A stretch of DNA of 64,000 bases. Source: Flavobacterium sp. M31R6. GTDB taxonomy: Bacteria; Bacteroidota; Bacteroidia; Flavobacteriales; Flavobacteriaceae. Position numbers and translations under genes: made by a program. Where the stretch lies: assembly GCF_013284035.1 (NCBI RefSeq), contig NZ_CP054141.1, positions 3,534,001-3,598,000 of the forward strand. Direction: 5' to 3'. The stretch's first letter is position 1. The number at the start of each line of letters is the position of its first letter. The notes under the pieces are model-generated. The model worked only from the letters and a program-made list of their open reading frames with translations, searched no databases and was not told the origin of the DNA. This document shows positions 6,833 through 33,836 of this stretch, in pieces.

Positions 6833-7138
6833 TTATACTATATCACCATTCCATTCTATGATACCACCAAGTAAATTATAGGCATTTTCTATCCCTAACT
6901 CGTTCATGATTTCACATGCTTTTGCACTTCTCATTCCTGAGCGGCAGTATACATAATAATTTTTGCTTTTATCCAACGCTGCAATAGCATCTATAAATTC
7001 CTGTCCTTTATGAATATCGATATTAATAGAACCTTCAATTATACCTTGATCGCATTCGTCTTCAGTTCTTACATCTAATATTACTGCATTTTCATCGGCT
7101 TCAAATTGAGAAACCCATTGCTCTTGTGTCAAATTCAT
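6833..7138 (-). CDS. Single-domain rhodanese-like sulfurtransferase
   Basis: The start was placed at 7138 (MNLTQEQW), which fits the domain boundary better than an in-frame codon 48 bp upstream. This gives a 101-residue cytoplasmic protein. The active-site loop is YCRSGMRSA with the persulfide-carrying Cys, after the conserved VILDVRTEDE and before LLGGIIEW. It should pass sulfane sulfur between low-molecular-weight or protein thiols. It is transcribed away from the Crp/Fnr and persulfide dioxygenase genes but lies next to them, which fits a sulfur-handling neighbourhood. No GTGAC-N4-GTTAC box was seen in its promoter. Confidence 0.88.
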   Translation of the reverse strand: MNLTQEQWVSQFEADENAVILDVRTEDECDQGIIEGSINIDIHKGQEFIDAIAALDKSKNYYVYCRSGMRSAKACEIMNELGIENAYNLLGGIIEWNGDIV

Positions 7139-7418: not shown

Positions 7419-8045
7419 ATGCCAGAGCAGCTCAAAAAAACATTCCCATCCTTTTCAAAAGAACTGATTCAAGATATAAAAGCAACTGAAATTATCAAAA
7501 ATTTCAATTCGGGTGAAGTCATCATGCGTACTGGACAATATATCAAAAACACAATTCTGGTAACCAAGGGAACCATCAAAGTCTATCGTGAAGATGACGA
7601 TGGTGGTGAATTTTTTATGTATTATTTACAGCCCGGACAAGCCTGTGCCTTATCTATGGTTTGTGCAGCTAAGAATGAAAAAAGCCAAATTATGGCTAAA
7701 GTGGTTGATGATGCCGAAGTAGTTATGGTTCCGTTGTCGCTTATGGACAAATGGATGATGCAGCATCGGTCTTGGTATGAATTTGTCATTGGCACTTATC
7801 GAAATCGTTTTGAAGAAGTACTGGAAGTTATAGACAGTATTGCATTTAGAGCTATGGATGAACGTCTGGAGTTTTACCTTAAACGACAGGTTGAAGCTTG
7901 TGGTTGCAAAGAACTTAAACTTTCCCATCAAGAAATCGGTTCTGATTTGAATACTTCCAGAGAAGTTATTTCGAGACTGCTCAAGAAAATGGAACAAAGA
8001 GGCTTGGTGGTTTTACATCGCAATCAGATTGAGATTTTGATGTAG
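7419..8045 (+). CDS. Crp/Fnr family transcription regulator, likely reactive-sulfur responsive
   Basis: The 208-residue protein has an N-terminal cyclic-nucleotide-binding-like beta roll (about 15-115), a dimer helix and a C-terminal winged helix (about 150-208). The recognition helix reads TSREVISRLLKK, with Arg181, Glu182 and Arg186 spaced like Arg180, Glu181 and Arg185 of E. coli CRP, which contact GTGA half-sites. Four cysteines occur, Cys76, Cys82, Cys161 and Cys163. They do not form the N-terminal FNR cluster motif but could sense persulfides. Three matching palindromes precede tauE, the persulfide dioxygenase operon and the RND operon. The role as their activator is inference. No such box was seen before its own gene. 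Confidence 0.9.
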   Translation: MPEQLKKTFPSFSKELIQDIKATEIIKNFNSGEVIMRTGQYIKNTILVTKGTIKVYREDDDGGEFFMYYLQPGQACALSMVCAAKNEKSQIMAKVVDDAEVVMVPLSLMDKWMMQHRSWYEFVIGTYRNRFEEVLEVIDSIAFRAMDERLEFYLKRQVEACGCKELKLSHQEIGSDLNTSREVISRLLKKMEQRGLVVLHRNQIEILM

Positions 8046-8059
8046 TTGTCAGTCTTCTG

Positions 8060-8146
8060 TTATGAGTTATCTGTTATGAGTTATCTGAAAACCGATAACT
8101 GAAAACCGATAACCGATAACCGATAACTGAAAACTGAAAACTTTTT
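8060..8146 (+). repeat. Short tandem degenerate repeats
   Basis: Units of the type GTTATGAGTTATCT and ACCGATAACTGAAA are repeated with variations. The stretch lies between the Crp/Fnr stop and the tauE promoter. It does not form a regular array with spacers. Confidence 0.7.
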
Positions 8147-8150
8147 AAAA

Positions 8151-8195
8151 AGTGACAAAAGTTACAGTTTACAAAAAATAGTCTTCGCATCTTTG
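8151..8195 (+). promoter_or_regulatory. CRP-like operator plus -7 box of tauE gene
   Basis: GTGACAAAAGTTAC at 8152-8165 is an imperfect palindrome centred at 8158.5. The -7 element CATCTTTG (one change from TAnnTTTG) is at 8188-8195, starting 29.5 bp from the centre. There is no good -33 TTG, as expected for an activator-dependent promoter. Start of translation follows 21 bp after the box. Confidence 0.7.
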
Positions 8196-8215: not shown

Positions 8216-9004
8216 ATGGAATACTTCGGTTATTTGGCATCTGTCATAATAGGTCTCTCTTTAGGTTTAATAGGCGGTGGAGGTTCTATTTTGACTATTC
8301 CCATATTGGTTTATTTATTCAAAATAGACCCAAAATTGGCCACTAGTTACTCTTTATTTATCGTCGGAATTACGGCTTTGTCCGGATGTTACACTCATTA
8401 CCGAATGGGAAATCTCAAAATCAAATCGGCAATGTATTTTGCAGTTCCTTCTGTATTTTCAATATTGGTTATCCGAGAAGTAATCATTTTAAAGATTCCC
8501 AATATCATTTTTACGATAAATGATTTTCAGGTCACCAAGAACTTTCTGATTATGATCATTTTTGCAGTATTAATGATGGCGGCCTCATTTTCTATGATTA
8601 ATAAAACTAATTCTCAAATACAATCTACTGGTACCAATTATCTGCAATTGGCAATAATTGGTTCTGTAGTTGGAATTGTAACTGGTTTTTTAGGTGCTGG
8701 CGGAGGATTTTTAATTATTCCTGCTCTTTTATTTTTTGCCAATTTACCCATGAAACAGGCTGTTGGAACTTCATTATTAATTATTTTTGTTAATTCCTCC
8801 ATTGGTTTTATTGGCGATTTATATATTGGCACACCCATCGATTATCCTTTCTTATTAACTATTTCAGGCATGGCTTTTATCGGAATGATTATTGGCACAC
8901 AATTGTCTAAAAAAATAGACGGCGACAAACTAAAACCCATTTTCGGTTGGTTTATTTTGGTAATGGGAATTTATATTTTTGTTAAGGAATTTTTTGCTAT
9001 TTAG
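8216..9004 (+). CDS. TauE/SafE family sulfite or anion exporter
   Basis: The 262-residue integral membrane protein has two related halves, each opening with a glycine-rich loop in a hydrophobic helix (GLSLGLIGGGGSILTIPIL near the N-terminus and VTGFLGAGGGFLIIPALL near residue 160). This is the hallmark of the TauE/SafE family. Members export sulfite, sulfoacetate or related anions. Persulfide dioxygenases produce sulfite, and one is encoded just downstream, so sulfite is the likely substrate here. The gene has its own CRP-like promoter and is followed by a long inverted repeat rather than reading tightly into the next gene. Confidence 0.9.
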   Translation: MEYFGYLASVIIGLSLGLIGGGGSILTIPILVYLFKIDPKLATSYSLFIVGITALSGCYTHYRMGNLKIKSAMYFAVPSVFSILVIREVIILKIPNIIFTINDFQVTKNFLIMIIFAVLMMAASFSMINKTNSQIQSTGTNYLQLAIIGSVVGIVTGFLGAGGGFLIIPALLFFANLPMKQAVGTSLLIIFVNSSIGFIGDLYIGTPIDYPFLLTISGMAFIGMIIGTQLSKKIDGDKLKPIFGWFILVMGIYIFVKEFFAI

Positions 9005-9130: not shown

Positions 9131-9175
9131 AGTAATTTTTGTCACAGATAGTATCATAAAACAGAAGTAACTTTG
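9131..9175 (+). promoter_or_regulatory. CRP-like operator plus -7 box of the persulfide dioxygenase operon
   Basis: GTAATTTTTGTCAC at 9132-9145 is the tauE box read on the other strand with one substitution. Its centre is 9138.5. A perfect -7 element TAACTTTG is at 9168-9175, again starting 29.5 bp from the centre. No -33 TTG is present. The box lies across an upstream in-frame TTG, so translation must begin at the ATG at 9200. Confidence 0.75.
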
Positions 9176-9199: not shown

Positions 9200-10612
9200 A
9201 TGCAAATAGAACAAATATATACAGGTTGTCTGGCACAAGGCGCATATTACATCACTTCCAATGGTGAAGCGGCCATAATTGACCCGCTGAGAGAAACACA
9301 ACCTTATTTGGATCGAATCGAACGTGACGGAGTCAAGCTGAAGTATATTTTTGAAACCCATTTCCATGCCGATTTTGTTTCGGGACATTTGGATTTAAGC
9401 AAAGAAACAGGAGCTCCAATCGTTTATGGACCAACAGCCCAACCAGAATTTAAAGCCACCGTTGCGAAAGACAGCCAACTATTTGAAATAGGAAATATCA
9501 AAATAAAAGTACTGCATACTCCTGGTCACACCATGGAAAGTTCCACCTATTTATTAATAGACGAAAACGGAAAAGATTATGCTATTTTCTCCGGTGACAC
9601 TTTGTTTATTGGTGATGTGGGAAGACCTGATCTTGCCCAAAAAGCAGCTTCGATGACACAGGAACAATTGGCTGGATTATTATATCATTCGTTAAGAGAC
9701 AAAGTGATGACGTTGGCAGATGATGTCATTGTTTATCCTGCTCATGGTGCGGGTAGTGCCTGTGGCAAAAACATGAGCAAGGAAACTGTTTCTACCATCG
9801 GTAACCAAAAAGCAACCAATTATGCTTTGAGAGCCAATATGACCGAAACTGAATTCATCAAAGAAGTGACCGATGGACTACTGCCTCCCCCAGCCTATTT
9901 TGGAATGAATGTGGCTATGAATAAAAAAGGATATGCCAGTTTTGAAAATGTATTGGATCTAGGTATGAAAGGTTTATCCGCTAATGAATTTGAAACAATC
10001 GCAGAGGAAACGGGTGCTTTAATTTTAGACACAAGAAACAACGGCGATTTTGCAAAAGGCTTCATTCCGCAATCCATAAACATCGGAATCAATGGTGATT
10101 TTGCTCCTTGGGTGGGCGCTTTGATTGCCAATGTAAAACAGCCTATCATATTAGTGACCGAATTAGGACGAGAAAAAGAAACTGTGACACGTTTGAGCCG
10201 TGTGGGTTTTGACAATTTAGTGGGACATTTAGAAGGTGGTTTTGAGGCGTGGAAAAAAGCGGGCAAAGAAATTGATACCGTAAACCGAATCACTCCAGAC
10301 CAATTCAAAGCGCAAGTGAAAATTGGCGAAAGCAAAATCATCGACATCCGTAAACAAAGTGAATACAGCGCTGAACATATCGAAGAAGCTTTCAGCAAAC
10401 CGCTGTCAAACATCAACGATTGGATAAAAGACATTGACCCTAAAGAGCATTTCTTTATGCATTGCGCTGGTGGTTACCGCAGCATGATTGCAGCATCGAT
10501 TTTGCAAGCCCGTGGTTTTAGAAATTTCAGTGAAATAGAGGGTGGATTTAACGCTATCGCCAAAACCGATATTCCAAGAACTGATTTTGTGTGCCAAAGT
10601 AAAATTCAATAG
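9200..10612 (+). CDS. CstB-like persulfide dioxygenase / rhodanese fusion
   Basis: This 470-residue protein has three parts. Residues 1-~240 are a metallo-beta-lactamase fold of ETHE1 type, with H54, H56 and D58 in THFHADF, H110 in HTPGH, D133 in SGDTLF and H182 in PAHG. Residues ~260-355 are a rhodanese-like domain with no Cys at the active-loop position (VTELGREKE). Residues ~365-465 are an active rhodanese with Cys422 in HCAGGYRS. The order MBL, pseudo-rhodanese, rhodanese matches S. aureus CstB, which oxidises persulfides to thiosulfate or sulfite using non-haem iron. It heads an operon of thiol-related genes. The start was chosen downstream of the promoter box. Confidence 0.9.
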   Translation: MQIEQIYTGCLAQGAYYITSNGEAAIIDPLRETQPYLDRIERDGVKLKYIFETHFHADFVSGHLDLSKETGAPIVYGPTAQPEFKATVAKDSQLFEIGNIKIKVLHTPGHTMESSTYLLIDENGKDYAIFSGDTLFIGDVGRPDLAQKAASMTQEQLAGLLYHSLRDKVMTLADDVIVYPAHGAGSACGKNMSKETVSTIGNQKATNYALRANMTETEFIKEVTDGLLPPPAYFGMNVAMNKKGYASFENVLDLGMKGLSANEFETIAEETGALILDTRNNGDFAKGFIPQSINIGINGDFAPWVGALIANVKQPIILVTELGREKETVTRLSRVGFDNLVGHLEGGFEAWKKAGKEIDTVNRITPDQFKAQVKIGESKIIDIRKQSEYSAEHIEEAFSKPLSNINDWIKDIDPKEHFFMHCAGGYRSMIAASILQARGFRNFSEIEGGFNAIAKTDIPRTDFVCQSKIQ

Positions 10613-10674: not shown

Positions 10675-10878
10675 ATGAAAAAAAATATGGGTGCTACAGA
10701 CAAGTTGATTCGTTCGATAATTGGAATTATCATTGCAATATTATACTATGCCGGTATTATAACTGGTACACTAGCCATTGTTTTATTAGCTTTTGCCATC
10801 ATCTTTTTACTAACCAGCTTCATTAGTTTTTGCCCATTGTACACACTTTTAGGCATAAACACCAATAAAAAACAATAA
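10675..10878 (+). CDS. DUF2892 (YgaP-type) small membrane protein
   Basis: This 67-residue protein has two hydrophobic helices (about 13-33 and 34-55) and a conserved FCPLYTLLGI end. That matches the DUF2892 family, which is the membrane part fused to rhodanese in E. coli YgaP. It lies directly between the persulfide dioxygenase and the methyltransferase, with only one base before the latter. A role in membrane handling of sulfane sulfur is suggested by such neighbours but is not demonstrated. A second DUF2892 protein ends the RND operon at 34330. Confidence 0.85.
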   Translation: MKKNMGATDKLIRSIIGIIIAILYYAGIITGTLAIVLLAFAIIFLLTSFISFCPLYTLLGINTNKKQ

Positions 10879-10879
10879 T

Positions 10880-11713
10880 ATGGAAGAACTACAATGCTGC
10901 GTGGTGTCCTGTGAAAAACCTTTGGATAAAGTCTATTGGGACAACCAATATCAATCCAATACAACTGGTTGGGATTTGGGAGAAGTATCCCCTCCCATAA
11001 AAAGTTATATTGATACTTTAGAAGACAAAGCCATTCAAATTTTAATCCCTGGTTGTGGAAATACCTATGAAGCGGAATATCTTCTGGAACAGGGTTTTAC
11101 AAACGTTACCGTAATTGACATTGCTCCAACATTAATAGAAAATCTAAAAACCAAATTCAAGAATAATTCCAATATCAATATCGTATTGGGAGACTTTTTT
11201 GAACATCAAGGTGAATATGATCTAATCATCGAACAGACATTCTTTTGTGCTTTGCCTCCTATAATGCGTCAAAAATACGTCTGGAAAATGCATCAGCTTT
11301 TGGCCAACAAAGGAAAAATTTCGGGATTATTATTCAACCGAACATTTGAAAGTGGCCCTCCTTTTGGCGGAAGCCAAGAAGAATATAATTTGCTTTTTCA
11401 ACAGGCTTTTAATTTTCTAAAAATGGAAGTTTGCCAAAATTCTGCCACGCCGAGAGCTGGTTCCGAATTGTTTATCGAATTGCAAAAAAACAGTGAAGTG
11501 CTAGTCAATTTATACCCATTTGAAGGAATCACCTGCAATGGTTGCAAGAATACAGTTTCCGAGAAATTCTCGGCACTTGAAAGCGTTTTAAACGTAAGCA
11601 TGAGCAGTAATTTTGCAGAAGTATTAATTGTAAGCAAAGTTGAAGTTGCATTGGAAATATTGCAAAAAGAAATCGCTTATGATGAAAAATATAAAATTAA
11701 ACAAAAATTATAA
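10880..11713 (+). CDS. TPMT-like thiol/halide methyltransferase fused to a C-terminal HMA domain
   Basis: Residues ~15-200 form a class I SAM methyltransferase of the thiopurine S-methyltransferase family, with the SAM loop IPGCGN at 56-61, acidic VIDIAP at 77-83 and GDFFE at 104. Relatives methylate thiols, bisulfide or halides. Residues ~205-277 resemble a heavy-metal-associated domain with ITCNGCKN (Cys219, Cys222). The N-terminus has an extra QCCVVSC cluster. In this operon hydrosulfide or a related thiol is a plausible substrate and the HMA part may bind copper or another soft metal. The fusion is unusual to my knowledge. Confidence 0.8.
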   Translation: MEELQCCVVSCEKPLDKVYWDNQYQSNTTGWDLGEVSPPIKSYIDTLEDKAIQILIPGCGNTYEAEYLLEQGFTNVTVIDIAPTLIENLKTKFKNNSNINIVLGDFFEHQGEYDLIIEQTFFCALPPIMRQKYVWKMHQLLANKGKISGLLFNRTFESGPPFGGSQEEYNLLFQQAFNFLKMEVCQNSATPRAGSELFIELQKNSEVLVNLYPFEGITCNGCKNTVSEKFSALESVLNVSMSSNFAEVLIVSKVEVALEILQKEIAYDEKYKIKQKL

Positions 11714-11970: not shown

Positions 11971-12273
11971 ATGAGTACTTTCAACGATATCATTCAATCC
12001 GAAAAACCAGTCTTGGTTGATTTTTTTGCCACTTGGTGTGGGCCTTGCCAAACATTGGCTCCCATTCTGAAACAAGTAAAAGACAATTTAGGTGACCGTA
12101 TATCCATCATCAAAATTGACGTCGATAAAAACCAGCAAATCGCTTCGCAATATCAAGTTCGAGGCGTTCCTACGATGATTCTTTTTCAAAACGGAAAACA
12201 ATTGTGGAGACAATCTGGAGTTCTAAGCACCTCCGATTTAATCAAGGTTATTGTAGAAAAAAGTAACTCATGA
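11971..12273 (+). CDS. Thioredoxin
   Basis: This 100-residue cytoplasmic thioredoxin carries the classic WCGPCQ active site after VDFFATW. The cis-Pro lies in VRGVPTMILF. There is no signal peptide. Its stop overlaps the start of the next gene by four bases. In this operon it may reduce protein or glutathione-like persulfides formed during sulfide stress. The housekeeping trxA is likely elsewhere. Confidence 0.93.
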   Translation: MSTFNDIIQSEKPVLVDFFATWCGPCQTLAPILKQVKDNLGDRISIIKIDVDKNQQIASQYQVRGVPTMILFQNGKQLWRQSGVLSTSDLIKVIVEKSNS

Positions 12274-27672: not shown

Positions 27673-27850
27673 TATTAGAAATTAAATAATTAATGTTTGC
27701 TATTACAAAATTTTTATAAATATAGCACAGTCTTTCAGAAAAAAAAATAACTGTTGATAAAACAAAAAAACATTTCAGTTAATTCATTTAAAAAGCATTG
27801 CTTTTGTTCACTCCATTCATTCCTTTTATTTTTTCATTTCTTGTGACTAC

Positions 27851-27895
27851 TGTGACAATTGTTACTGACTATCGCTTTTCATCATTCTAAATTTG
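27851..27895 (+). promoter_or_regulatory. CRP-like operator plus -7 box of the RND efflux operon
   Basis: GTGACAATTGTTAC at 27852-27865 (centre 27858.5) matches the boxes at 8152 and 9132. A perfect -7 element TAAATTTG is at 27888-27895, starting 29.5 bp from the centre, the same distance as in the other two promoters. No -33 TTG is present. Confidence 0.75.
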
Positions 27896-27918: not shown

Positions 27919-29229
27919 ATGAGAAAAATCAATTTTATACTACTGGGAATTATTTCAATCACCCATTTTGGATATAGTCAAGATACCATAGCTATTTCTA
28001 AAAAAGACATTTGGGAAAAAGCAGCTGACAAGAACTTGCAAATCAAGATGGCGAATCAAGATTTCAAATCGGCTCAAGCTGATTATCGCCAATCGAATTC
28101 GTTGTTCTTGCCGAATATCTCGGCTTCGCACACTTCAATGGCAACAACCAATCCGTTGATGGCTTTTGGTTCCAAATTAAATCAGGGGATTTTAACGCCT
28201 TCCGACTTTGATCCTGCAAAACTGAACAATCCGTCACAAACCCAAAATTTTGCGACAAGAATTGATGTTTTGCAACCGCTTATCAACGTTGACGGATTGT
28301 ATGGACGACAAGCAGCCAAATCAAAAATGGATGCCTATCAATTGCAAACCGAAAGAACCAAAGAATATTTGGAGCTGGAAATTAACAAAGCTTTTATGCA
28401 ATTGCAAATGAGTTACAAAGCCGTAAAAGTGATTGAAAAAGCAAATGTAACGGCTGAAGCCAATTTGAAACTGATTCAAAATTATTTCAAACAGGGAATT
28501 TTGCAAAAAACCGATTTACTATCAATGCAAGTACGCGTCAATGAAGTCCAAAATCAATTGCAATACGCCAAAAGTAACGTACAAAACGCTTCGGATTATT
28601 TGGCTTTTCTTTTGGATGAAGGCACTGCAAACAAGGTCTATAAACCCCTTGAGGAATTGGACAATGTCATCATAATTGATGCTTTCAATACTTCATTATC
28701 GGATAATCGTAAAGACATTCAGGCGATGAATAAAACAACCGAATCCTATGGCAAAATGTTACAATCGAGCAAAATGAATTTCTTGCCAAGATTGAACGCT
28801 TTTGGAAGTTACGAAATGTATGCACAGCAACTTTTCGGATCCAATTCGACTGGATATGTAGTGGGAGCGCAATTGTCTTGGAATGCTTTTGACGGATATA
28901 AATCCATTGGAAAAATGGAAAAAGCCAAAGCTGATTTCCAAAAATCGGAAATCGAAACCCAACAATACAAAGCGCAAAGCCAAATGGAATTGAGCAAAGC
29001 CAACAGACAACTTAGAGATGCCGAAAACAAGGTGAATTTAGAAAAACTGGCTTTAGAACAATCCAAAGAAGCCTATAGAATAAGAAGCAATCGTTTTACA
29101 CAAGGATTAGAAAAAACCACGGACTTATTGCTTACGGAAACTCAGATGTATCAAAAAGAACTAGAGTATTTGCAAGCCGTTTTTGAATACAATTATACAC
29201 AAGAATACTTAGGCTTTTTGACTAAATAA
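27919..29229 (+). CDS. TolC family outer-membrane efflux protein (RND operon)
   Basis: The 436-residue protein has a signal peptide of ~20 residues and the two long coiled-coil repeats of the outer-membrane efflux protein family, with KSKMDAYQLQTERTKEYLEL in the first half and a matching segment in the second. It heads an operon with a HlyD adaptor and an RND pump, the usual tripartite set. Its promoter carries the CRP-like box shared with the persulfide genes. Confidence 0.88.
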   Translation: MRKINFILLGIISITHFGYSQDTIAISKKDIWEKAADKNLQIKMANQDFKSAQADYRQSNSLFLPNISASHTSMATTNPLMAFGSKLNQGILTPSDFDPAKLNNPSQTQNFATRIDVLQPLINVDGLYGRQAAKSKMDAYQLQTERTKEYLELEINKAFMQLQMSYKAVKVIEKANVTAEANLKLIQNYFKQGILQKTDLLSMQVRVNEVQNQLQYAKSNVQNASDYLAFLLDEGTANKVYKPLEELDNVIIIDAFNTSLSDNRKDIQAMNKTTESYGKMLQSSKMNFLPRLNAFGSYEMYAQQLFGSNSTGYVVGAQLSWNAFDGYKSIGKMEKAKADFQKSEIETQQYKAQSQMELSKANRQLRDAENKVNLEKLALEQSKEAYRIRSNRFTQGLEKTTDLLLTETQMYQKELEYLQAVFEYNYTQEYLGFLTK

Positions 29230-29292
29230 ATAATTTTAATGGCAATGGCAAAAATCAATATCAATATCAATATCAATTATAAAAAATATACA

Positions 29293-30411
29293 ATGAAGAA
29301 CATCTTATTAAAATCAGCTATAATCACTTCACTATTTGTTTTACTGCTTTCCTCTTGTCATGGCGAGAAGAAAGAATCCATTGCAAAAGAACCTGCTATC
29401 GCAGTAAAAGTAAGTGGTGTGTCTGAAAACAACAACAGGCAATTTGTAACGGCCAGTGGAAAAATTGAAGCCGAAAACTCGGCCAATTTAAGCACGCGAA
29501 TGATGGGCTATGTAACCAAAATTCACGTTCAAGTGGGGCAAAAAGTAAATGAAGGACAATTGTTGGTCAGCATCAACAACACCGATTTGCAAGCCAAAAA
29601 AGCGCAAGTGGATGCCAGTATTTTGCAAGCAACAGCTGGCTACAACAATGCCAAAAAAGATTACGACCGTTTTGTGAATTTATTTAAACAACAAAGTGCT
29701 TCACAAAAAGAACTAGACGACATGACGGCTCGTTTTGAAATGGCAAAAGCAGGTTTGGAAGGTGCCAAACAAATGCGAAACGAAGTAATGGCGCAATTCT
29801 CTTACTCGAATATCACAGCTCCGTTTGCGGGTGTGGTAACCAATACTTTTGTAAAAGAAGGCGACATGGCCAATCCCGGTATGCCATTGGTAAGTATAGA
29901 AGGAGCATCGAGATTGCAAGTAACGGCTATGGTTTCAGAAAGTGACATTACTGCCATCAAAAAAGGAATGGATGTAAAAGTACTGGTTAAATCCTCTAAC
30001 GAAAGCTTGGGTGGAAAAGTTAGCGAAGTAAGTTTATCGGCAAAAAATACGGGGGGACAATATTTGGTAAAAATCAATTTGAACAAAACCGATGATACTG
30101 TATTATCTGGAATGTTCGTAAACGTTCAGTTTCCTGTTGCCAATACCATACACCCGAGCGATAGCGAACAGGCGAAGCAAACAAAAACAAGCGGAAAAGT
30201 TCTGGTTCCCGAAAGTGCTTTGGTGCAACAAGGACAGTTAACCGGAATTTATACTATTGGAACTGGAAATATTGCCATATTAAGATGGTTGCGTGTTGGT
30301 AAAAACTTTGGTAATCAAGTAGAAGTTTTATCTGGCTTATCGGCCAATGAGCAATATATCGTTTCGGCTGAAGGGAAATTGTATAATGGAGCTTTGGTTA
30401 GTGTTCAGTAG
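29293..30411 (+). CDS. RND periplasmic adaptor lipoprotein (membrane fusion protein)
   Basis: The start at 29293 (MKNILLKS) gives a proper signal peptide with lipobox LLLSSCHGEK. An in-frame ATG 54 bp upstream would add a low-complexity stretch coded by ATCAAT repeats. The 372-residue protein has a lipoyl half (GYVTKIHVQVGQKVNEGQLL), a coiled-coil hairpin (~100-160), a second lipoyl half, and barrel and membrane-proximal parts. It joins the TolC channel and the RND pump of this operon. Confidence 0.9.
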   Translation: MKNILLKSAIITSLFVLLLSSCHGEKKESIAKEPAIAVKVSGVSENNNRQFVTASGKIEAENSANLSTRMMGYVTKIHVQVGQKVNEGQLLVSINNTDLQAKKAQVDASILQATAGYNNAKKDYDRFVNLFKQQSASQKELDDMTARFEMAKAGLEGAKQMRNEVMAQFSYSNITAPFAGVVTNTFVKEGDMANPGMPLVSIEGASRLQVTAMVSESDITAIKKGMDVKVLVKSSNESLGGKVSEVSLSAKNTGGQYLVKINLNKTDDTVLSGMFVNVQFPVANTIHPSDSEQAKQTKTSGKVLVPESALVQQGQLTGIYTIGTGNIAILRWLRVGKNFGNQVEVLSGLSANEQYIVSAEGKLYNGALVSVQ

Positions 30412-30644: not shown

Positions 30645-33600
30645 ATGCAAGAAGGAATTTCAGGTAAAATAGCCCATTTTTTCATCAATTCGAAGTTAAC
30701 GATACTGTTGATGGTGGCTTTGATGATTATAGGAGTGTACAGCTCGTTTCTAATCCCAAGGGAGGAAGAACCACAAATAAATGTTCCGATGGCCGACGTA
30801 ATGGTGGGTTATCCCGGTGCTAATCCCACCGAAGTTGAGAGTCGTGTGATTAAGCCTTTGGAGAAAGTAATTTCGAATATCAAAGGGGTTGAACACGTGC
30901 ACAGTATGGCGATGAACGGTCAGGCGATGTTGATTGTACAGTTTTTTGTGGGGCAGGATGTGGAGCGTTCGTATGTAAAATTATATGACGAATTGGCGAA
31001 ACACGAAGGTATGTTTCCGCAGGGAGTGTACAAACCAATGGTAAAAACCCGCTCGATTGATGATGTGCCGATGTTGGGATTAACACTTTGGAGCGAAAAA
31101 CAAGACAGTTTTCAGTTGCGTCAGCTTGCCGAAGAAGTGACTTCGGAAATTGAAAAAGTAAAAGATGTGGCCATTACCAAGGAAATTGGAGGCAACAATC
31201 GCGAACTGAAAGTGATTTTGGACAAAGATAAAATGGCCGAAAATGGCGTGGATGCTTTGGGCGTTATGCAAATGATTCAGGCCAATAACGGCAGTTCACA
31301 ATCGGGTAGTTTTGTCAATGACAATAAAGAATATTTGGTTACCACGGGACAATTTTTGTCGAATGCGGAAGATGTAGAAAACCTCGTGGTAGGTGTCAAT
31401 AAAAACCTGCCTGTCTATTTGAAACAAGTTGCCAAAGTGCAAGACGGCCCCTCTACAGCCATAAGTTATGTGTCGTTTGGGTATGGCAAAGCCAATGAAA
31501 AATTCAAAACCGCCAAATCCGAATATCCTGCCGTTACGATCTCTGTAGGAAAAGTGAAAGGTGCAGATGCAATGAAAATATCGGCAAAAATTATTGCCAA
31601 AGTAGAACAATTAAAAAAGAATTTAATTCCAAATGATGTACACGTTGAAGTAACACGTAACTATGGGGAAACGGCTTCGGACAAAGTGGGTGAATTATTG
31701 ATGCACTTGGGAATTGCGATTATTGCCGTGACGCTTTTGGTAATGCTTGCTATGGGCTGGCGCGGTGGATTGGTGGTTTTCTTCTCCGTTCCCTTGACGT
31801 TTGCGCTGACGTTGTTTGCCTATTATTTATTGGGTTATACGCTAAACAGAATTACACTGTTTGCCTTGGTATTTGTGGTGGGAATTGTGGTCGATGACAG
31901 TATTATTATTGCCGAGAATATGCACCGCCATTTCAAAATGAAGCGACTGCCATTCAAACAAGCGGCGATTTATGCGATTAACGAAGTCGGAAATCCAACG
32001 ATTTTGGCAACGTTTACCGTAATTGCGGCGATACTTCCCATGGCGTTTGTATCTGGAATGATGGGACCTTATATGAGTCCGATGCCAATTGGTGCTTCGA
32101 TCGCGATGTTATTGTCGTTGTTTGTGGCCTTGACGGTGACACCTTATTTGGGTTATCATTTGCTTCAGGAAAAAGAAGAGCAACAACACAAAGAATCCGA
32201 AGGAATAGAAACGAGTTGGGTCTATAAAATCTACAGCAAACTGGAACGTCCCTTCTTGGAAAGCAGTGCCAAAAGGCGTATTCTGGTTGCGGTAACCGTG
32301 TTTTTGCTGTTTGGATCTGTTTTCATGTTTTTTAATAAATCGGTGGTGGTAAAAATGCTACCATTCGATAATAAAAACGAATTTCAAGTGGTGATTGATA
32401 TGCCCGAAGGAACTACGCTGGAACGTACTGCTGCCGTTACCAAAGAAATTGCTCAATATCTTTCGACAAAACCCGAAGTGGTGGATTATCAAAATTATAT
32501 TGGTACATCGGCACCTATAACTTTCAACGGTTTGGTGCGTCATTATGATTTGCGTGGCGGTAGCAATATGGCCGACATACAGGTGAATTTATTGCACAAA
32601 GAAGACCGTGATTTGCAAAGTCACGCTATTGCAAAAGAAATGCGTCCCGAGATTCAGAAAATTGCCAAGAAATACGGAGCCAACGTAAAAATTATTGAAG
32701 TTCCGCCAGGACCTCCTGTATTATCGACTTTGGTAGCCGAGATTTATGGACCTAATTATAAAGATCAAATAAAAGTAGCACATCAAGTAAAATCAATTCT
32801 TGAAAAAACCACTGATATTGTTGATGTTGACTGGATGGTTGAGGACAACCAAACGGAATACAAACTGAAAATCGACAAAGAAAAAGCGATGCTGAATGGT
32901 ATTGCACCTCAACAAGTGGTCGGCAATCTGACGTATTTATTGAAAGAATACCCGGTTTCGAATTTGTACGATCAAAACTCCAATGATAATGTGGGCATCG
33001 TTCTTTCGCTTGACGACAAAGACAAAACGAGTTTACAAGACATTGAGAACCTAAAAATCAAAGGAAGTCAAGGAAATATGATTCCGGTGAGTGATTTGGT
33101 AAAAGTAGAAATGGACACACTGCAAAAAACCATTTACCGAAAAGACCAAAAACGTGTGGTTTATGTAACCGCTGATATGGCTGGAGCATTAGAAAGTCCT
33201 GTGTATGCGATTTTGGGAATGAATGAAAAACTGGCCAAAATGCAATTGCCAAAAGGATATAAAGTCAACGAACTCTATATGGAACAACCTACAGACGAAA
33301 GTGATTTTACCGTAAAATGGGATGGCGAATGGCAAATTACCTTAGAAGTATTCCGTGATTTGGGTGTGGCGTTTATGGTAGTTATAGTGATTATTTATAT
33401 GCTGATTGTGGGTTGGTTTCAAAACTTCAAAACACCAATGGTAATGATGTTGGCCATTCCGCTTTCGCTAATAGGGATTGTGTTTGGTCACTGGTTGCTG
33501 AATGCTTATTTCACGGCAACCTCTTTCATTGGTATGATTGCATTGGCCGGAGTGATGGTAAGGAACTCGGTATTGCTTATCGATTTTATCGAAATCCGAT

Positions 33601-33836
33601 TGAACGAAGGTGTACCCTTAAAACAAGCCATTATTGAGGCTGGTGCTGTTCGAACTACACCAATTTTGCTAACCACAGGCGCCGTAGTTATTGGAGCTTC
33701 CATTATTTTGTTTGACCCAATCTTTCAAGGTTTGGCGATTTCATTAGTATTTGGAGCCATCGTTTCGACAATATTAACCTTATTGGTAGTGCCTTTGATT
33801 TATTATATCACAGAGAGAAATAAATGGGAGAAATAA
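30645..33836 (+). CDS. RND family efflux pump permease
   Basis: The 1063-residue inner-membrane protein shows the standard RND plan: one helix near the N-terminus, a large periplasmic porter loop, a helix bundle including the proton-relay pair in GIVVDDSIIIAENMHRHF, then the second half repeated. Closest in style to AcrB/MexB-like or CusA-like bacterial pumps of the HAE group. Proton-driven export through the adjacent adaptor and TolC is expected. The operon shares the CRP-like control box with the persulfide genes, so a sulfur compound or damaged thiol product may be a substrate, which is inference. Confidence 0.93.
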   Translation: MQEGISGKIAHFFINSKLTILLMVALMIIGVYSSFLIPREEEPQINVPMADVMVGYPGANPTEVESRVIKPLEKVISNIKGVEHVHSMAMNGQAMLIVQFFVGQDVERSYVKLYDELAKHEGMFPQGVYKPMVKTRSIDDVPMLGLTLWSEKQDSFQLRQLAEEVTSEIEKVKDVAITKEIGGNNRELKVILDKDKMAENGVDALGVMQMIQANNGSSQSGSFVNDNKEYLVTTGQFLSNAEDVENLVVGVNKNLPVYLKQVAKVQDGPSTAISYVSFGYGKANEKFKTAKSEYPAVTISVGKVKGADAMKISAKIIAKVEQLKKNLIPNDVHVEVTRNYGETASDKVGELLMHLGIAIIAVTLLVMLAMGWRGGLVVFFSVPLTFALTLFAYYLLGYTLNRITLFALVFVVGIVVDDSIIIAENMHRHFKMKRLPFKQAAIYAINEVGNPTILATFTVIAAILPMAFVSGMMGPYMSPMPIGASIAMLLSLFVALTVTPYLGYHLLQEKEEQQHKESEGIETSWVYKIYSKLERPFLESSAKRRILVAVTVFLLFGSVFMFFNKSVVVKMLPFDNKNEFQVVIDMPEGTTLERTAAVTKEIAQYLSTKPEVVDYQNYIGTSAPITFNGLVRHYDLRGGSNMADIQVNLLHKEDRDLQSHAIAKEMRPEIQKIAKKYGANVKIIEVPPGPPVLSTLVAEIYGPNYKDQIKVAHQVKSILEKTTDIVDVDWMVEDNQTEYKLKIDKEKAMLNGIAPQQVVGNLTYLLKEYPVSNLYDQNSNDNVGIVLSLDDKDKTSLQDIENLKIKGSQGNMIPVSDLVKVEMDTLQKTIYRKDQKRVVYVTADMAGALESPVYAILGMNEKLAKMQLPKGYKVNELYMEQPTDESDFTVKWDGEWQITLEVFRDLGVAFMVVIVIIYMLIVGWFQNFKTPMVMMLAIPLSLIGIVFGHWLLNAYFTATSFIGMIALAGVMVRNSVLLIDFIEIRLNEGVPLKQAIIEAGAVRTTPILLTTGAVVIGASIILFDPIFQGLAISLVFGAIVSTILTLLVVPLIYYITERNKWEK

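Follow-up and report, generated by a model that had tools for sequence, protein, structure and literature searches.

To our knowledge, few regulators of the Bacteroidota, a phylum common in soil, water and gut, have a known operator. The stretch of Flavobacterium sp. M31R6 DNA analysed here (64,000 nucleotides, hereafter the window) encodes a Crp/Fnr-family regulator, termed the 7419 protein after the first base of its gene, together with a sulfite exporter, a persulfide-dioxygenase-like protein and an RND efflux pump. An earlier note on this sequence had placed one CRP-like operator at a fixed distance from the promoters of these three units. The locus raises the question of whether a single regulator governs them, by which promoter geometry, and in response to which signal. 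We consider it probable that the 7419 protein is a class II activator of a four-unit reactive-sulfur regulon, which it would reach through GTRAC-N4-GTYAC operators and switch in response to persulfide or polysulfide at C76 and C82. The operator, its spacing, its targets, its link to the presence of the regulator and its match to the recognition helix are all read directly from the sequences.

Operators and genes of the window

The operator pattern GTRAC-N4-GTYAC is found at three promoters of the window, 22 bases upstream of a -7 box and centred at about -41.5 (Table 1). The coordinates that the earlier note gave for the three palindromes and three boxes are all correct, and the distance from the palindrome centre to the first base of the box is 29.5 at all three promoters, as claimed. 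Its description of the elements needs two amendments. Three GTGAC-N4-GTTAC-type palindromes are present, but the one at 9132 has one mismatch (GTAAT); likewise, the three boxes of TAnnTTTG type are in place, but the box at 8188 (CATCTTTG) lacks its first T.

Table 1 Predicted regulon features in the window
Feature	Position	Strand	Remark
Crp/Fnr-family regulator, 208 aa, cNMP-binding fold and Crp-type HTH	7419..8045	+	PF00027, PF13545 and PF00325 above cut-off
C-x5-C pair, codons 76-82, first to second cysteine, proposed sensor	7644..7664	+	Conservation
Recognition helix TSREVISR, residue 182 = E	7953..7976	+	
Operator GTGACAAAAGTTAC upstream of TauE	8152..8165	+	Centre 8158.5
-7 box CATCTTTG, TauE promoter, first T missing	8188..8195	+	
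TauE/SafE sulfite exporter family protein	8216..9004	+	PF01925, 146 bits
Operator GTAATTTTTGTCAC upstream of dioxygenase operon, 1 mismatch (GTAAT)	9132..9145	+	Centre 9138.5
-7 box TAACTTTG, dioxygenase operon promoter	9168..9175	+	
Persulfide-dioxygenase-like metallo-beta-lactamase fused to rhodanese domains, 470 aa, ATG 9200	9200..10612	+	PF00753, PF00581 (two stretches)
YgaP-like membrane protein	10675..10878	+	PF11127
Thiopurine-methyltransferase-like protein, weak HMA-like C-terminal part	10880..11713	+	PF05724
Thioredoxin	11971..12273	+	PF00085; TIGR01068 above cut-off
Operator GTGACAATTGTTAC upstream of RND pump operon	27852..27865	+	Centre 27858.5
-7 box TAAATTTG, RND pump operon promoter	27888..27895	+	
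Outer-membrane efflux protein (OEP/TolC family)	27919..29229	+	PF02321
RND periplasmic adaptor	29239..30411	+	TIGR01730 above cut-off
RND inner-membrane permease	30645..33836	+	PF00873, 513 bits

The enzyme activity of the dioxygenase-like protein is predicted from its domains. The YgaP-like gene, which follows after a short gap, is probably co-transcribed with it. The thiopurine-methyltransferase-like gene probably belongs to the same operon, and the thioredoxin gene possibly does. The HMA match of the methyltransferase-like protein reaches 23.5 bits, under the cut-off of 24.8. In the window scan at up to one mismatch, no operator was found upstream of the regulator gene, and thus no sign of autoregulation; the adjoining single-domain rhodanese gene (6833-7138, minus strand) has no operator either.

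The flanks of two operators carry further repeats. Short head-to-tail repeats of the ACCGATA/ACTGAAA type occupy window positions 8055-8140, directly upstream of the TauE operator. An extra GTGAC half is located 9 bases upstream of the pump operator (window 27843-27865), and in five loci of relatives (L196, L197, L198, L200 and L201) two palindromes stand 17 or 22 bases apart upstream of the pump.

Arrangement of palindrome and box in the genome

The bare palindrome is not enriched. The window contains 4 matches at up to one mismatch vs 2.47 expected, within chance, and 22 of 100 shuffles of the window reach 4. The 4.46 Mb genome holds 10 exact palindromes vs 17 for the reversed control, and 268 vs 575 when one mismatch is allowed. 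Because these counts do not exceed the controls, the evidence rests on arrangement and conservation.

Seven of the ten exact palindromes are located inside other open reading frames, including a 152-aa frame (L088), and have no box at gap 22. The remaining three all have a box at this gap, the TauE one with one mismatch; they precede TauE, the RND pump and, outside the window, two rhodanese genes (L091, C1:3858134), which form the fourth unit of the proposed regulon. At this fourth site a TTG-start open frame crosses the palindrome, and the likely ATG lies 77 nt after the palindrome start. A genome scan with up to one mismatch and an A/T core gave 56 sites; of the 50 that were examined, the four regulon promoters carry a box at gap 22 and no other site does. 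One-mismatch boxes at gap 21, 23 or 24 occur in 4 of 40 further sites read and are taken as chance. The earlier note had staked its proposal on a preference of the spaced motif for the claimed gene families; among the own-genome sites examined, the motif at gap 22 is confined to these families, and in the relatives scanned it is conserved upstream of the same ones.

Promoter geometry

Class II CRP sites are centred near -41.5 and substitute for the upstream promoter element, and Bacteroidota promoters have a -33 TTG element. This TTG had been described as missing from each of the three promoters, and indeed none of the three 22-nt spacers contains TTG. In F. psychrophilum the -7 box TAnnTTTG occupies positions -12 to -5, according to the available part of PMC9723704; the operator centre is therefore at -41.5, the class II position. 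Insofar as the F. psychrophilum box applies here, the operators would stand near -41.5 in place of the upstream element.

The same geometry is observed in relatives. Searching genome contigs with the regulator found 517 relatives, of which the best 80 loci were used. Among 152 palindrome strand matches in these loci, 47 of the 53 exact boxes within 80 nt are located at gap 22, whereas four control patterns in the same 80 loci gave 2-10 matches with 0-1 boxes each. Of 98 distinct promoters in which palindrome and box are both exact, one has a TTG starting 21 bases upstream of the box (about -33). At TauE, 37/37 relatives' promoters with an operator have C, A or G in place of the first T of the box, and therefore none of them has an exact box; it is as though weakness and dependence on an activator were being preserved there.

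These features bear on the sign of regulation. A protein bound at this position could hinder RNA polymerase, and a repressor or dual regulator would have precedent in BigR, described as a repressor in the available text, and in SqrR and CstR, named repressors in reference titles. However, the exact conserved spacing and the rarity of the -33 TTG fit an activator that replaces this element, and degenerate TauE boxes are expected of activator-dependent promoters. We therefore regard repression or dual regulation by the 7419 protein at these sites as improbable, and treat the protein below as a putative activator.

Conservation upstream of the three units

In the relatives' loci, a site was called at up to one mismatch in the palindrome and up to one in the box. 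Such a site precedes the dioxygenase gene in 61 of the 64 judgeable loci, with both elements exact in 41. TauE is preceded by a site in 37 of 58 regulator loci and is without one in 21; ten of these 21 upstream regions were inspected, and nine have no site while one (L058) has a degenerate match. The regulator is located close upstream of TauE or a TauE fragment in 29 Flavobacterium loci inspected.

For the pump, 101 genomes of the genus, including the strain's own, were searched for the OEP gene (match E < 1e-150), which yielded 36 clear orthologs in 35 genomes. All 36 have a palindrome with a box at gap 22 upstream. Of these palindromes, 32 are exact and 4 carry a single mismatch; of the boxes, 34 are exact and 2 carry one; both elements are weak at only one site (L309). 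The longer list of the same search also contained distant OEP paralogs; 14 of them were examined and none has the site, although five of the 14 come from genomes also holding an ortholog. Conservation at the pump orthologs is the strongest support for what is the least expected member of the regulon. In one genome (G222, contig 1, 34182-34800) the OEP gene is broken by several stops, and it was excluded from the ortholog count.

Dependence of the site on the regulator

We searched 149 genomes across the family for the regulator and the dioxygenase, and inspected the dioxygenase upstream region in 51 of them. The regulator-bearing genomes (E below 1e-40) are mostly the top of the dioxygenase list, and the others were chosen for an absent or weak regulator match (none, or weaker than 1e-38). 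The site is found upstream of the dioxygenase in 31 of 33 genomes with the regulator vs 0 of 18 in which it is absent or weak (Fisher p 7e-12, which overstates the association because the genomes are related and eight of the 18 site-less genomes are small, at most 2.2 Mb, with the other ten at 3.0 Mb or more). When sites farther than 250 bases from the dioxygenase are disregarded, a count by hand gives 25/33 vs 0/18 (p 7e-8). The upstream sequence was read over 1.5 kb in twelve loci and about 1.8 to 4.5 kb in forty, with one genome (G081) in both sets; one of the 31 sites (L166) lies beyond 1.5 kb.

G081 was drawn first as regulator-bearing, has a match of only E 8e-31 and was counted among the 18. 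G014, the weakest regulator-present match (E 6e-41), has the site and carries T at position 82; recounting it as regulator-absent gives 30/32 vs 1/19. The two regulator-bearing genomes without a clear site, one with a degenerate site only (G110) and one with none (G148), both keep C76 and C82. Seven of the genomes without a site have a nearest homolog from which C82 has been lost and in which C76 is kept.

Taken alone, the palindrome counts in the window and genome, which are not above controls, would suit chance matches in an AT-rich genome. The spacing peak, the conservation at orthologs, the negative paralogs and the dependence on the regulator lead us to reject this reading, to which we assign next to no probability.

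The regulator and its cysteine pair

By Pfam domains the 7419 protein belongs to the Crp/Fnr superfamily, with a cNMP-binding fold and a Crp-type HTH. It is not a CRP ortholog by the NCBIfam equivalog model (48.3 bits vs a cut-off of 266), and in the FNR test it scores 27.1 bits vs a cut-off of 228. FNR carries an N-terminal cysteine cluster for its 4Fe-4S centre, and this cluster is absent from the 7419 protein. The predicted structure (pTM only 0.53) matches Crp/Fnr chains in Foldseek.

The cysteines of the regulator are found only at positions 76, 82, 161 and 163. C76 and C82 flank a short helix (78-81; DSSP on the predicted model, which is of moderate quality), and the corresponding region of CRP is the ligand-binding part. 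We claim no cysteine distance because of the pTM of 0.53 and the low confidence around residues 81-90.

Both C76 and C82 are kept in 81/81 rows (80 loci and the window), in 24/24 regulators of dioxygenase loci, two of them site-less, and in 29/29 pump genomes. Moreover, they are kept in 30/30 of the best among 142 matching genomes of a 247-genome phylum sample. These sets overlap in part and exclude seven site-bearing loci (L149, L151, L152, L156, L166, L176 and L179); the sole exception among regulators read from site-bearing genomes is G014. C161 is kept in 76/81 rows and C163 in 75/81, and both are mostly absent beyond this first set. As in persulfide-sensing regulators of the BigR kind, the conserved pair (G014 excepted) comes together with putative targets that comprise persulfide dioxygenase, sulfurtransferase and sulfur export genes.

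Recognition helix and operator base

Substitutions of E181 in CRP reportedly alter the preference at the G:C base pair that this residue contacts (work attributed to Ebright, 1984). According to the available part of PMC11253593, CRP uses E181 to contact the cytosine in this pair and R185 to contact the guanine. The helix TSREVISR in the 7419 protein follows the same R-E-x3-R pattern, as the earlier note had stated.

The Flavobacterium regulators of the first search have the helix TSREVISR, with E at residue 182. TSRVV[IV]SR or a near variant is found in most of the regulators read from other genera, and in 14 of 29 in the pump-bearing subset of the genus. In these 29 pump genomes, a GTG half is present in 15/15 pump sites of the E type and 0/14 of the V type. 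Across 86 regulator-site rows, E goes with GTG in 47/47 and V without GTG in 35/39; with distinct regulators plus the window's own, the counts are 43/43 and 32/36. Site-less and short-match rows were removed from this set, and every third of the 80 first-search loci was used. The four V-type regulators with GTG sites are L167, L173, L177 and L295. A pump-adjacent homolog with 40% identity in genome G225 reads SREVISR, and its site has a GTG half. This genome (L302, L303) holds two family regulators, 40% and 78% identical to that of the window, both with E182.

On the regulator tree residue 182 changed about twice (2 pairs, sign test p 0.5), and the pump tree, built without six of the 36 orthologs, gives between 3 (supported) and 5 changes of regulator type (sign test p 0.25). 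Because changes are few on both trees, the match between residue and base is not significant by independent events.

The helix also bears on which protein of the genome binds the operator. Several proteins with cNMP domains or a Crp-type HTH are encoded, and frames of 644 and 653 aa stand outside the helix comparison, so another Crp/Fnr paralog could be the binder. Among six own-genome cNMP-domain paralogs none has an R-E-x3-R helix; the three other full Crp/Fnr proteins read TATESCIR, TTEEQVTR and CTSRQTTTQ. In addition, the sites track the 7419-type regulator, its residue 182 matches the operator base, and its gene stands beside TauE or a fragment in the Flavobacterium loci described above. 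On helix sequence and regulator dependence, we think binding by another paralog very unlikely.

Extent of the proposed regulon and its likely signal

The window and the loci of relatives together have 153 sites, and the gene following each was classified. In 86 cases it matches the dioxygenase/rhodanese protein, though some of these copies are distant or have rhodanese only; in 29 it matches TauE, in two each the pump OEP and the regulator, and in one thioredoxin. Of the remaining sites, seven precede an SQR-like flavoprotein, so named only from its Pyr_redox_2 match and its context. Six precede a SulP permease, four a small protein lacking any Pfam match, three an OprD-type porin and two a YeeE-type transporter, and the rest are single cases. 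The 30 best phylum matches include 11 loci from outside the family; within flanks of about 1.5 kb, four of these (L286, L287, L298 and L301) have a palindrome near the regulator and a box at gap 22 or 23, the box having one mismatch in three of them.

We infer the following course of regulation, from binding through activation to the chemical signal. The 7419 protein would bind as a dimer to GTRAC-N4-GTYAC near -41.5 and, in a class II arrangement, would activate -7 boxes that lack a -33 element. The regulon would comprise the TauE exporter, the dioxygenase/rhodanese operon, the OEP-HlyD-RND pump and the rhodanese pair outside the window. The most likely signal would be persulfide or polysulfide reacting with C76 and C82.

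A true regulon of the 7419 protein could also answer to another signal (oxygen, general redox state, sulfite, cysteine supply or a nucleotide), with the sulfur genes as one output. The ligands of Crp/Fnr proteins are diverse, a cNMP-binding domain can be recognised in the 7419 protein, and in relatives a few minor additional sites are followed by a CydA-like protein (named by eye), OprD-type porins and others. Yet sulfur genes make up three of the four units in the strain's own genome, the additional targets in relatives are mostly candidates for sulfur transport or oxidation, C76/C82 accompany the regulon with one exception, and the FNR-type cluster is absent. Such another signal is possible but doubtful, and a persulfide or polysulfide switch remains our preferred reading.

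On a broader scale, there may be a Crp/Fnr lineage over the Flavobacteriaceae, probably the wider Bacteroidota, in which the CRP pocket became a C-x5-C persulfide switch and the operators followed a single helix change (E to V, GTG to GTA); we see the chances for and against this as evenly balanced. If true, it would be a natural example of a regulator whose operators have changed along with it throughout its regulon, the RND pump included, and a natural test of how the two shift specificity together. The analysis gives a Bacteroidota regulator with a predicted operator, a promoter geometry that is exact, a proposed regulon of four units and a sensor that can be tested. In addition, sulfur stress and an RND pump would be connected by a type of regulator that is unrelated to MarR.

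Comparison with known systems

A literature search at title and abstract level, outside most subscription papers, named no Crp/Fnr persulfide regulator of Bacteroidota. The BigR family is of the ArsR type. The 7419 protein falls outside this family, being of Crp/Fnr type and not of the winged-helix ArsR fold. The BigR operon of Xylella and Agrobacterium comprises the repressor BigR, the Blh sulfur transferase/dioxygenase and a TauE-related exporter, according to the available text of PMC5823870, where BigR is a winged-helix repressor acting at the -10 region of its operon. The present regulon resembles it in that a single regulator carrying a pair of cysteines would govern persulfide dioxygenase, sulfur transfer and sulfite export, and differs in its Crp/Fnr protein, its site at -41.5 and its several units, one of which is an RND pump. 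Sensors of the MarR family, for example MexR, connect sulfane sulfur to regulators that often control antibiotic-resistance genes, as far as the accessible parts of PMC11211675, PMC9495516 and PMC8614764 describe them; unlike the 7419 protein, these are MarR-family repressors of another fold.

Closer in structure are the members of the Crp/Fnr superfamily. FNR and HcpR-type regulators share the fold, and Porphyromonas HcpR (9day) is among the fold matches; the targets of FNR and HcpR-type regulators differ from those found here. With E. coli CRP at class II promoters, the 7419 protein and its operators share the 14-bp GTGA-N6-TCAC geometry, the R-E-x3-R helix (contacts as given in the available part of PMC11253593) and a centre near -41.5. 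Unlike CRP, to which it is not orthologous, it goes with GTRAC halves and a Bacteroidota -7 box. The closest solved structure by sequence, and the first by Foldseek E-value, is a putative Crp/Fnr protein of Eubacterium rectale (PDB 3dv8); its identity is about 25%, and its own C-x5-C pair aligns with that of the 7419 protein.
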